A program made the position numbers and the translations under genes. Below, piece by piece: positions 33,119 through 37,669 of a DNA stretch of 43,608 nucleotides. The notes below the pieces were generated by a model. That model ran no database searches. It had not been told where the DNA came from and worked only from the letters and a program-made list of their open reading frames with translations. Origin of the DNA: a candidate division KSB1 bacterium (GTDB lineage Bacteria; Zhuqueibacterota; JdFR-76; DREG01); NCBI GenBank assembly GCA_022566355.1, contig JADFJB010000021.1:1-43608 (forward strand), read 5' to 3'. Numbering within the stretch: the stretch's first letter is position 1; each line of letters starts with the position of its first letter.

Positions 33119-33820
33119 ATGAAAAAAGTATTACGAAAAACACTGAACGACATCAGTTATTTTATAGGATTGGAACGTTTTGGCTTTCTGTTATCAAAGC
33201 GAGTATTTTGGCGGGCCGATACAAAAAGAAAAGTCATTGCCCTTACTTTTGACGATGGACCTAATCCAATCTTCACACCTCAAATCCTTGAAATCCTCGA
33301 CGATTTTGCCGTTCACGCTACATTTTTTTTGATCGGGTCAAATGTAAACTTACAGCCTAGGTTAACTAAACAAATCTTTAATTCTGGACATCAAATAGGC
33401 AATCATACTTTCACCCATCCTACTTTAACTAAACTAGGGAATGGCCAGATCGAATCAGAGATTCTGGAGACAAAAAAAGCAATAGAAAATATCTGTAGTG
33501 TAACTACCCTTTTGATGAGACCGCCTTATGGGCTTTTTAACAGGAAAGTGCTGGCCATTACAGCGAACACCAATCATAAAGCTGTGATTGGCGATGTTTA
33601 TCCGCGGGACACCGCTTTGCCCGGTACTCAAAAATTAGTTTCAAGGGTTTTAAAACGAACTCGATGTGGCAGTGTTATTATTTTACACGATGGCGCACCA
33701 TCTGAAAAAATAAGTCGACTCCAGACAGTGGAGGGATTAAGAAAATTGATTCCTACTTTGCAAGAGAGAGGCTTCCGTTTCGTAAGTTTACCTGAGTTAA
33801 TGGATATCGATCATACCTAA
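33119..33820 (+). CDS. Polysaccharide deacetylase (CE4/NodB domain)
   Basis: Compact NodB-type deacetylase of 233 residues, the only plus-strand gene here. All family motifs are present: LTFDDGPNP (42-50, catalytic Asp and metal Asp), HTFTHP (96-101, metal histidines), MRPPYG (133-138) and VIILHDG near the C-terminus. There is no clear signal peptide or membrane helix before the domain; the first 38 residues are basic. It could act in the cytoplasm, leave by an unrecognised route, or have a different start. Its TAA overlaps the TAG of the converging GGR-like gene. No Shine-Dalgarno is visible before the ATG. Confidence 0.88.
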
Positions 33821-35016
33821 CTTAGCTTTAAATTTTGTTTGATCACATCTTTAAAAACCAGCACAGCATCTTTTACTAAATGCGGATGTTTGAACAAAAC
33901 CATTTTCATGAACTTGATCACATTTTTACGGGATTCGGTTAGATTTGCTACTGATTCAGCAATTTCATTGAGATCCTCATCTGTAAATTGGCTAATTGTT
34001 TCTTTTAGCCGGTAAAAAATAGTATGAACATTCCCCTCGGCTTTATACCACTCACGTTCATATTGCAGTAGGAATTCTTTTGAATAATCTCCTTTTTTTA
34101 CGGCCTTAGCTGCCGTTATACCCGCTAATTTACCGCCAATCATCCCACTTATAATGCCTCCACCGGAAAGCGGATTTACTTGTCTCGCAGCATCACCCGC
34201 CAAAAGCAACCCAGGTGCAACGATTTGCTTTAGAGTTTTAGCACAGGGAACACATCCCATGGTAGTGTTTAATTTTTTGGCATTTGGATAATATTTCATT
34301 ATAAAGCGATCCAAATTTGATTTGGCGGATTCCTCCCTGGCATATTGTCCAGCAACACCCAATCCCACATTGGCCACTCCCTCTCCACGTGGAAAAACCC
34401 ATAAATATCCTCCCGGCGAGTAGTTTTCAGAAAAATAAAAATCGCAGGTGGTTGGCTTAAATTCAGCATCCGTTAAAATATATTGAATGACAGATTCAAA
34501 ATCTTTGAGTTTTAGTTGGGTATGGATTCCCCCCCATCGCCCAACTCGAGATTCCGAACCATCTGCTCCAATCACCACTTTACTAGACACTTCGTATTTC
34601 TTATTCTCGGAAATAAAACTTACGCCATTAATCGAGCCATTATTGTGAAGCAAGCCAGTCACACAAGCTCTGGTTCGAATTTCTGCTCCTGCTAAAGCGG
34701 CCCTTTCGGCAATATAATGATCAAAAACTTTTCTATTTAAAATGAATCCTATCTCCCCCCCTACAAATTTCAATTTTGTTCCATTTGAAGAGATTAGGTT
34801 TACTGCATTAATGGGTGTTTGAATATGTTGAGGTTTTGGTTCAAAAAATAACCTGAGGCCGTCGGCCCCTACACCTTCGGCACAGCGAACTGGGACACCG
34901 ATATCCCGGCCTTTTTCCAGGAGTAAAACAGATGCACCATTTTTCGCTACAAATTCAGCTGCAGTTGAACCTGCCGGCCCACCTCCCACAATCACAACAT
35001 CAAAGTTTTCTTTCAT
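33817..35016 (-). CDS. Geranylgeranyl reductase-family FAD oxidoreductase
   Basis: Flavoprotein of 399 residues. [20 protein letters not shown] (7-26) is the dinucleotide-binding motif, [12 protein letters not shown] the mid FAD motif and [18 protein letters not shown] the C-terminal FAD motif typical of the geranylgeranyl reductase (GGR) family. This family saturates isoprenoid chains of archaeal lipids, chlorophyll phytyl groups or quinones, with reduced ferredoxin or NADPH as donor. Its ATG overlaps the ferredoxin stop (ATGA, 35013-35016), and the UbiA gene is immediately upstream, so the three probably act together on a prenylated molecule. The precise substrate is not readable. CVPC before the FAD motif could be redox-active (speculative). 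Confidence 0.85.
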
Positions 35017-35195
35017 GCCGCTTTTTCCACGTACTCAAGGACCTCAATGGGACAAACCCAAACACATAATTTACAGTTTGTGCATTTTTCATGAACGATG
35101 ACTATTTCTGCTTCATAAAGCTCAATGCAATCCGGCGGGCATATCGCCACACAAGCGCCACAAAAATCACAAGAATTTTCCTTGATGTTAATCAT
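35013..35195 (-). CDS. 2[4Fe-4S] ferredoxin
   Basis: Small ferredoxin of 60 residues with two cluster motifs. Cys9, Cys12, Cys15 and Cys19 form the first CxxCxxCxxxCP set, and Cys38, Cys41, Cys44 and Cys48 the second, each followed by Pro. An extra Cys lies at 23. It overlaps the UbiA stop by 8 nt and the GGR-like start by 4 nt, a strong sign of coupled translation. It probably supplies low-potential electrons to the GGR-like flavoprotein; this is inference from the pairing, not from a binding motif. Confidence 0.9.
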
Positions 35196-36153
35196 TCAAC
35201 ACCTCTGAAATATGTGAGAAATTGGGATAATTTAGTTGAAACCGATTCCGATAATACCATTTCGATAAAAAAAATATTCCTAACATCAAAACTGCATATG
35301 CAGGGAATAATAATACGACTGCTAATGATAAAAATAAGATCGCAAATCTAGTTGCTTGAATGATACTGCTTAGATCGTCTTTAAAAAGAAGTTTGACAAA
35401 AAATGGTAAAACCGCAAGCGCAGGAAAAAGTATCAAAAAATCCATAAACAAAATAGCCAAAATTAGACAAGCAATTTCCAACAGCAGTGCCGTTAAAATC
35501 GTTGTGCGCAAATCAAATTTTACTGCAAATGTAATTTTGCCAACGTGCTGATCACCAATCTTATCGGGCATCGTTGTTAAAAGATAAACAGCGCCAATGG
35601 CAAACATATAAGGAACTGCGTTGATAATTGTTTCTAAGGTTAGCATAGCCGTAATTTGCCAGCCAATCATAAATGTTAATAAACCACCAATCAAATTAAC
35701 AAGTAATCCAGCAATCGGCCTGTCTTTCCATAAAAATGGCGGAAGACTGTAACCAATGCCAGTTACAAGAAAAAGCGCAAAACAAAGCATTACCAAATGA
35801 ATATCCTTTTGTACTGCAAAAAAGAAGGCAAGGAGAATACAAACCGTAGTTACACTAATTGCAGTTTTTCTCGACACCATTCCATCTGCTAAAAGAAACA
35901 GTTTGTTATTTTTTTGATCGCTTTGGATATCAGTAAATTGGTTGATAATAAAAACGGACGCCATAAGCATTGTAATTGAAAGAAACGACCTCCAAAAAGC
36001 AGAATCAGTGAAATGGGATTGAATCAATTGCCATTGGGAACTATCAAAATTATTGGATATTAACTGTGGATTGATAAACCCTGCTAATAGGATTGTCCAG
36101 ACCGGAAATAATAATACAGGCCGGGTTAGAAATATGTAATCGAATATCTTGAT
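35188..36153 (-). CDS. UbiA-family prenyltransferase, apparent ATC start
   Basis: Integral membrane prenyltransferase with about nine hydrophobic helices. The first Asp-rich motif is NQFTDIQSD, a variant of NDxxDxxxD, and the second is DKIGDQHVGKITFAVKF. The first standard start is TTG at 36027 (279 residues), but that drops a helix. The same frame continues upstream without a stop for 46 codons and reads KIFDYIFLTRPVLLFPVWT, the usual UbiA N-terminus. No ATG, GTG, TTG or CTG lies in that extension. AGAGAGGA sits four bases before ATC at 36151-36153, so I place the start there, giving 321 residues; a base error in an ATG would look the same. It heads the ferredoxin/GGR-like trio; substrate unknown. 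Confidence 0.75.
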   Translation of the reverse strand: MKIFDYIFLTRPVLLFPVWTILLAGFINPQLISNNFDSSQWQLIQSHFTDSAFWRSFLSITMLMASVFIINQFTDIQSDQKNNKLFLLADGMVSRKTAISVTTVCILLAFFFAVQKDIHLVMLCFALFLVTGIGYSLPPFLWKDRPIAGLLVNLIGGLLTFMIGWQITAMLTLETIINAVPYMFAIGAVYLLTTMPDKIGDQHVGKITFAVKFDLRTTILTALLLEIACLILAILFMDFLILFPALAVLPFFVKLLFKDDLSSIIQATRFAILFLSLAVVLLFPAYAVLMLGIFFLSKWYYRNRFQLNYPNFSHISEVLND

Positions 36154-36238
36154 GCGGTCCTCTCTTTACCCGGAAAACTAATGATTGTGCATGAAAAAGG
36201 CAAGTATTTGTTAATGGAGAAAGAAAATTCTATTTCAA

Positions 36239-37669
36239 TTATATTTCTTGAATAGTGACTTCCTTTTCAATATCCGATTCCTCAAATTTTTCTTCAACCG
36301 GAATGGGATAGTTGCCACTGAAACAAGCTGTACAATAACCAAGTTCTCCATTAGGTACCGAATCCAGTAACTCTTCTAGTGTCAAATATTCGAGACTATC
36401 TACACCTAAATATTCCCGAATCTCTTCTGTCTCCATTCTGTCAGCAATTAATTCACCCTGGGAAGGGAAATCCATACCATAATAACAGGGATGTTTAATT
36501 GGAGGCGAAGAAACCCGAATATGTACCTCCCTTGCACCGGCTTTTCTCAACATTTTGACTAAATGCTTTATAGTTGTTCCGCGAACAATGGAATCATCTA
36601 CCAATACGACCCTTCGATCTTTCAATACACCCCCCACATCATTAAACTTTAACCTTACATGGAAATCACGGGTCTTTTGCGACGGTTGAATAAACGTCCG
36701 TCCGATATAATGATTGCGAATTAATCCTATATCGAATTTTATGTCACTGCGACGTGAATAACCAATCGCTGCAGTATTACTCGAATCCGGAACACTGATG
36801 ACTATATCCGCATCAACAGAATGGCCAATCGCCAGGTTCTTGCCTAATTTTCGTCGTGCCTTATCAACATACTCTCCGAATATTCGACTGTCAGGACGAG
36901 AAAAATAAACAAATTCAAAAATGCAATGTGCCGGTTTCACCGGCTCAGAAATACGGGTACTAAATTCTCCTTTTTGGTTAAAACAAATCAATTCACCGGG
37001 TTTCACATCACGCAGGTAATCAGCGCCGATAAGATCCAAAGCACAAGTTTCGGAAGCGGCGATAATTGTATTTCCAATTTTTCCTAATGCCAATGGACGA
37101 ACCCCATATGGATCCCTTGCTACAATAAGTTCATTTCGAGTTAGAAAAACAAGAGAAAAAGCGCCTTTAACCTGGCGTAATGCATCCAATAATTGTTCAA
37201 CTATTCCATTCTTCTTCGACCGTGCAGCAAGATGCAGGATCACCTCGCTATCATTAGTGGTTTGAAATATTGAACCTGAATTCTCAAGCTCTCTACGAAG
37301 CGATTTATAATTTGTCAGATTACCATTATGAGCTATTGCCAGCGAACCTTGTTTGCTTTTGACTAAAATCGGTTGTGAATTAAGGAGAGTACTAGAACCG
37401 GTTGTTGAATAACGGTTGTGTCCAACAGCAATATGGCCCTTCAGCCCAGATAATATGTTCGGATCATTAAAGATATCGTTTACCAAGCCTGTACCAATAT
37501 GTCGATAAACCTGGTCTCCATCAGTGGTTACAATTCCACTTGCTTCCTGACCTCTATGTTGTAATGCATGAAGTCCCAAATAGGCCAATTCTGAAGCATT
37601 TGCACCGCCATAAATACCCATTATGCCACAATTCTCACGAGGTTTGTCTATACAAGTATTTTGATTCAT
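36239..37669 (-). CDS. purF: Amidophosphoribosyltransferase
   Basis: First committed enzyme of purine synthesis: glutamine and PRPP give 5-phosphoribosylamine. It has 476 residues. The N-terminal nucleophile is Cys14 in ENCGIMGIYG, after a 13-residue propeptide that must be removed. The glutaminase domain has HRGQEASGI and VGHNRYSTTG. RRVVLVDDSIVRGTT is the PRPP-binding motif. Cysteines in HCIFEFVYFSRPDS, HPCYYGMDFPS and GYCTACFSGNYP match the [4Fe-4S] type seen in B. subtilis PurF. A candidate control element was not found in the 100-base upstream gap. Confidence 0.97.
   Translation of the reverse strand: MNQNTCIDKPRENCGIMGIYGGANASELAYLGLHALQHRGQEASGIVTTDGDQVYRHIGTGLVNDIFNDPNILSGLKGHIAVGHNRYSTTGSSTLLNSQPILVKSKQGSLAIAHNGNLTNYKSLRRELENSGSIFQTTNDSEVILHLAARSKKNGIVEQLLDALRQVKGAFSLVFLTRNELIVARDPYGVRPLALGKIGNTIIAASETCALDLIGADYLRDVKPGELICFNQKGEFSTRISEPVKPAHCIFEFVYFSRPDSRIFGEYVDKARRKLGKNLAIGHSVDADIVISVPDSSNTAAIGYSRRSDIKFDIGLIRNHYIGRTFIQPSQKTRDFHVRLKFNDVGGVLKDRRVVLVDDSIVRGTTIKHLVKMLRKAGAREVHIRVSSPPIKHPCYYGMDFPSQGELIADRMETEEIREYLGVDSLEYLTLEELLDSVPNGELGYCTACFSGNYPIPVEEKFEESDIEKEVTIQEI

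Follow-up and report, generated by a model that had tools for sequence, protein, structure and literature searches.

Where does translation of the gene for the UbiA-family prenyltransferase (hereafter ubiA) begin? The window, that is, the whole stretch of 43,608 nucleotides analyzed here, corresponds to contig C21 of a draft genome of 4.62 Mb (G000; 213 contigs, 98.5% complete), and the features in and around ubiA are listed in Table 1. Reading 5' to 3' on the minus strand, an in-frame TAA is followed by AGAGAGGA, the tetranucleotide CCGC (36157-36154) and an ATC codon; in codons, the frame after the stop opens AGA GAG GAC CGC ATC AAG ATA TTC GAT TAC, where the codons after ATC encode KIFDY and eight codons are available ahead of the conserved DY. 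The distance from ATC to the first usual start codon, TTG, is 42 codons, and the full stretch between the TAA and this TTG contains no ATG, GTG, TTG or CTG codon in the ubiA frame. The preliminary description had pointed out the open frame upstream of the TTG, the lack of these four codons and the Shine-Dalgarno-like sequence four bases ahead of ATC, and all three observations are confirmed by our reading of the sequence. By itself, a run of 42 codons free of ATG, GTG and TTG is no rare event (P about 0.09, given an internal frequency of 5.5%).

Table 1. Features of the ubiA region (positions in the window)
Feature	Positions	Strand	Basis or remark
purF, upstream neighbor of ubiA	36239..37669	-	TIGR01134, 519.4 bits
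TAA, in-frame stop bounding the UbiA extension	36166..36168	-	sequence reading
AGAGAGGA, Shine-Dalgarno-like	36158..36165	-	GAGG core at 36162-36159
ATC, likeliest ubiA initiation codon (candidate)	36151..36153	-	frame reading; GAGG spacing of 5 nt
UbiA head: KIFDYIFLTRPVLLFPVWTILLAGFI (helix 1) and the following loop	36028..36150	-	conservation in relatives
TTG, first usual start codon in the ubiA frame	36025..36027	-	rejected as start
UbiA-family prenyltransferase gene, read from ATC	35188..36153	-	321 codons and stop
Small ferredoxin with 4Fe-4S domains, overlaps the 3' end of ubiA	35013..35195	-	Pfam Fer4
Geranylgeranyl reductase family protein	33817..35016	-	TIGR02032, 231.3 bits (cut-off 158.8)

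Family, predicted fold and genomic neighborhood

The protein matches the Pfam family UbiA (PF01040; E-value 5.6e-20; 72.1 bits against a cut-off of 34.2) over residues 52-259 (numbering of the frame from the stop), with the head outside the match; all 11 NCBIfam matches score below their cut-offs. A structure model, built from only two sequences, is of low confidence (mean pLDDT of 65.1, pTM of 0.62) and places helices at residues 2-9 and 11-26 of the head, with pLDDT of only about 50 there. In the VIA-align comparison, the best rows for this model are UbiA structures (6m31_A: Z 19.4, 3.8 A, 256 residues), and the soluble prenyl diphosphate synthases reach Z values of up to 13.4. The aligned ranges of the UbiA structures start at model residues 1-6, these ranges giving the end residues only, in a region with pLDDT of about 50. 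As far as such a low-confidence model can indicate, the protein appears to adopt the overall UbiA fold, which it would share, along with the Pfam family, with DGGGP synthase (7bpu, 6m31) and the UbiA protein of A. fulgidus (4tq3); however, the identity to these proteins in the structural alignments is only 13-16%.

The gene belongs to a purF-ubiA-ferredoxin-geranylgeranyl reductase cluster that spans positions 33817-37669 of the window. Inspection by eye identified a purF-like C-terminus upstream of ubiA also in two related genomes, G001 and G002. Between purF and ubiA, the search turned up neither a promoter-like signal above the shuffles nor a terminator-like site.

Conservation of the N-terminal head

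Because the Pfam match starts only at residue 52 and the structure model is weak, the argument for the head rests on its conservation in relatives. The UbiA protein read from the stop was compared with 58 related genomes (59 including its own), 57 of which contain a match, the exception being G058; in G029, the match covers only the 3' part of the gene, and the 5' ends were accordingly read in 56 relatives. A related-locus search for ubiA yielded a single locus, the same gene as L013. Positions in the head are ungapped counts from the tblastn start, with AGA as position 1 and ATC as position 5. The head is present in each of the 56 relatives read at the 5' end, where the alignments start at residues 2 to 8; four residues, D9, F12, P16 and W23, are invariant (56/56 each), and two more, R15 (54/56) and G29 (55/56), are nearly so. 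The codon differences in the head at positions 1, 2 and 3 number 19, 10 and 26 in the comparison with G001 (41 codons), 15, 12 and 21 with G002 (40 codons), and 17, 14 and 23 with G003 (41 codons); the bias toward third positions is weaker than in the body of the gene (95, 53 and 175 differences from G001 over 280 codons). The extension is very likely the true N-terminus, and the proposal of the preliminary description that it encodes the first UbiA helix is upheld: each of the 56 relatives has the head, with a usual start ahead of it.

The mechanical list of open reading frames begins the gene at the TTG at 36027, the frame's first usual start, which would yield a product without helix 1. We find this reading extremely improbable: none of the 56 relatives read lacks the head, the invariant residues of which would be lost, and no Shine-Dalgarno-like sequence precedes the codon (no 4-base match, by eye, in the 25 bases ahead). 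The loss of the conserved head led us to reject TTG as the start.

Start codons in the relatives

ATG occupies position 1, which is AGA in G000 and precedes the ATC position by four codons, in 33 of the 56 relatives; in another 19, ATG lies at some other position from -12 to 8, and the remaining four, including G001, have only GTG or TTG in this interval. In G001, there are TTG codons at positions 0 and -3, plus an ATC at position 5 that may simply be an old sense codon. At the ATC position itself, 52 of the 56 relatives have a codon other than ATG, and four have ATG (residue 5 is L in 18 relatives, I in 9, V in 9, A in 4, M in 4 and others in 12). Given that ATG is mostly found at the AGA position and that the ATC position is non-ATG in the great majority of relatives, ATC need not once have been ATG, and the codon lost as the ubiA start may have been a different one. 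The alternatives posed in the preliminary description, a rare ATC start or an ATG altered by mutation or error, were the right ones, with the refinement that the lost start may have been elsewhere. In two genomes (L020 in G044 and L032 in G023), the only nearby ATG stands exactly at the ATC position, and therefore a protein starting there seems to be viable.

G000 is the sole genome without a usual ubiA start among the 57 read; in every one of the 56 relatives, among them the two other members of its family, ATG, GTG or TTG is found near the head. The rare ubiA start is therefore not conserved, as a regulatory one would usually be, and this counts against initiation at ATC. The same distribution favors the explanation that the start codon in the assembly is wrong, the cells having ATG, GTG or TTG at or next to ATC, and that the assembled codon reflects a consensus base error or a mixed-strain base. 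We regard this as a distinct possibility, although on the doubtful side; further evidence bearing on it is given below, with the broken reading frames. Confinement of the departure to one of the 57 genomes is also consistent with a recent, real mutation that removed the ubiA start in this strain, followed by weak expression from ATC or by decay, and similar start changes, from ATG to ATA or ATT in rsbW, were reportedly selected in Listeria (PMC13068326). However, all 321 codons of the ubiA frame are uninterrupted, the identity to the closest relative, G001, is 59%, and the differences are concentrated at third positions; a recent mutation appears unlikely.

Shine-Dalgarno signal and choice among the candidate codons

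The GAGG core ends 5 nt ahead of ATC and amounts to a weak match of only 4 bases. In 843.6 kb of G000, matches of at least 4 bases were found for 48.9% of the 466 ATG-first genes compared to 16.1% of the shuffles, the gene sets here and in the scans described below being open frames taken from the first usual start codon rather than annotated genes. Among the 195 ATG-first genes with a Shine-Dalgarno core in this sample, the spacing is 3-9 nt in 162, 4-7 nt in 128 and exactly 5 nt in 32. The anti-Shine-Dalgarno sequence was taken to be the usual one because the pattern for the 3' end of 16S rRNA was not found in the G000 assembly. Of the near-cognate codons, CTG, ATA, ATT and ATC are known to work as starts; among these kinds, ATC is the one with good spacing 5' of the conserved DY, and the ubiA start is most probably at 36153.

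Several other codons have some features of a start. Downstream of ATC, AAG (36150-36148) and ATA (36147-36145) are each one base away from ATG, AAG with a spacing of 8 nt; upstream, there is an in-frame ATG at 36192 and a TTG at 36203, which could be used with a frameshift or read-through. We consider initiation at any of these highly unlikely. The spacing of ATA would be 11 nt, which is rare in G000 (3 of the 195 genes), and the rare starts for which function has been reported do not include AAG. ATG 36192 was rejected, two in-frame stops, TAG and TAA, intervening between it and ubiA; TTG 36203 is the only upstream start, by eye, that a single-base indel would rescue, and the one-base shift it needs would produce a longer N-terminal tail unlike those of the relatives.

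An apparent rare start in infC and rare starts in other bacteria

The infC gene of the same genome (L063, G000:C67) has an apparent ATC start, AAAAGGAGTGCTCAT-ATC, with AAAAGGAG located 7 nt ahead of ATC AAA GAA GGT GAA, and ATG, GTG and TTG are all absent from the stretch that separates the in-frame stop from the conserved RINEQI motif; therefore, AUC initiation probably works in this cell. The infC motif search located 17 of the 31 loci, and this conclusion makes use of G000 infC only. In several relatives (e.g., L086, L099, L101 and L112), a purine-rich, AGGAGG-like or GGGGAGG sequence precedes ATT in infC.

In published work, infC is reported to start with ATT in E. coli and with ATC in Streptomyces and to be restrained by its own product, and sigR of Streptomyces to have an IF3-repressed GTC start (PMC5472188). 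Other reports describe fixed rare starts in 6 of 2265 conserved genes of Listeria and an experimentally confirmed ATC start in Listeria rnhC (PMC13068326), rare starts that lower the protein yield in cvfC1 (AUU) and ccpN (AUA) of S. aureus (PMC13009471), and an ATG to ATA start change in rpoS (PMC12864459). A literature search, judged from its listing, returned no related paper on a UbiA-family gene with a rare ATC start.

Like infC with its ATT, ATC or ATA starts, ubiA combines a near-cognate codon with an upstream Shine-Dalgarno sequence; however, the rare start of infC is widely used and autoregulatory, whereas that of ubiA is a singleton among the 57 genomes read and belongs to a metabolic gene. 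Streptomyces sigR resembles ubiA in being a non-infC gene with a rare start that was missed by annotation, and IF3 restraint could apply to ubiA as well, but the sigR start was proved by experiment whereas that of ubiA is predicted from sequence. In cvfC1 and ccpN, too, the near-cognate start is aided by Shine-Dalgarno pairing; in these genes, the pairing is extended and the rare starts are conserved, in contrast to the 4 bases and the non-conserved start of ubiA. AUC initiation in ubiA is plausible and of a known kind and would be a new instance rather than a new mechanism.

Missing starts and broken frames elsewhere in the genome

In the first 443.6 kb of G000, two more genes, one of the UbiA family and one for a glutamine amidotransferase, lack a usual start before the conserved N-terminus. 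The second UbiA-family gene (L071, 12133-13023, minus strand, G000:C8; L115 in G001; L116 in G002) has no ATG, GTG or TTG before the conserved PYLILLRPTN in G000 and G001, and has TTG in G002; the frame in G001 opens TAG ATT CTG AAA, and the 5' end is overlapped by the upstream frame in all three genomes. Initiation at CTG, ATT or ATA, or coupled translation, is possible for this gene. The class-I glutamine amidotransferase-like gene (L074, 13016-13786, plus strand, G000:C11) has a 44-codon head without usual starts, with GGGAG 8 nt ahead of ATT; given the overlapping frame, a frameshift is possible too, and this gene is also one of the 11 cases kept by the frame-break scan described below. 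By eye, two coding-looking heads without usual starts were observed in G002 as well (L182, 14944-15951, plus strand, G2C9, and L178, 17850-19421, minus strand, G2C5; one of them exchanger-like). The inspection by eye covered some of the dozens of heads listed. The missing starts in G000 and G002 speak for some genuine rare starts in the family or else for similar errors in both assemblies.

Frame breaks were sought as a strong coding signal that continues across a stop without a new start. The stricter scan kept 11 of 13 candidates in 843.6 kb of G000, whereas 800 kb of G002 yielded two, both kept, and 240 kb of G005 none, an excess with P of 0.004 (binomial) or 0.01 (Fisher, by gene); an earlier, looser version flagged 15 breaks in G000 against a single one in 400 kb of G002. 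Among the 11 breaks are a TAA between WDVDF and AYLKKLEREKPVIFCGDLNVAH in an exonuclease III-like frame (L161, 2349, plus strand; G000:C8:22349), a TGA in a four-helix-bundle-like gene and a TAG in a TolB-like gene; a fumC-like frame with an in-frame TAA after MSSDKFRIETDSMGEMKVP (L082, around 8252; G000:C19) was found separately. These four names are our presumptive identifications, made by eye from sequence motifs rather than by family search. A propeller/SpoIIE-like protein (L083, about 8999, minus strand; G000:C20) also shows a frameshift-like break, close to a CCCCC run.

The higher frequency of breaks in G000 than in the two control genomes, with stops in genes such as those for the exonuclease III-like protein and fumC, adds to the case for an assembly error in ubiA. 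However, the broken frames may be real; G000 is more AT-rich (39.3% GC against 43.5 and 44.6% in the control genomes), which makes stops by chance likelier; among the 11, at least C5 resembles a normal ATG start preceded by GGAGG; and the scan is crude, having left unflagged a broken symporter-like frame in G002 that was found by eye (G2C10, 16587). Together with the G002 heads that lack a start, this frame counts against an effect limited to G000. Still, given the excess of frame breaks, error or recent mutation stays a strong rival to a rare ubiA start, and whichever the cause of the breaks (errors, strain mixtures or true lesions), the loss of one gene's start codon would come as no surprise in G000.

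Proposed initiation at ATC and its implications

We give roughly even chances to the reading that ATC at 36153-36151 is present in the living genome and is used as the start. Under this reading, ubiA would be an ordinary gene for a UbiA-family membrane prenyltransferase in the cluster with purF, ferredoxin and geranylgeranyl reductase; the initiator tRNA would read ATC as fMet, helped by the GAGG core 5 nt upstream, and the product, fMet-KIFDY..., would retain helix 1. As with infC, such a near-cognate start would be expected to entail low expression and sensitivity to IF3. A broader conjecture, that isoprenoid-transfer genes in this lineage rely on weak starts restrained by IF3 (the ATC of ubiA and the start of the second UbiA-family gene), with the level of IF3 coupling translation fidelity to prenyl-lipid synthesis, is highly speculative and, in our judgment, improbable.

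If the assembled codon is an error, ubiA is a lone missing start in a draft genome, to be weighed against the other broken frames of the assembly. If ATC is real, a metabolic membrane enzyme of an uncultured lineage would join the short list of bacterial near-cognate starts, and would illustrate how standard start rules can trim a conserved helix off a protein.
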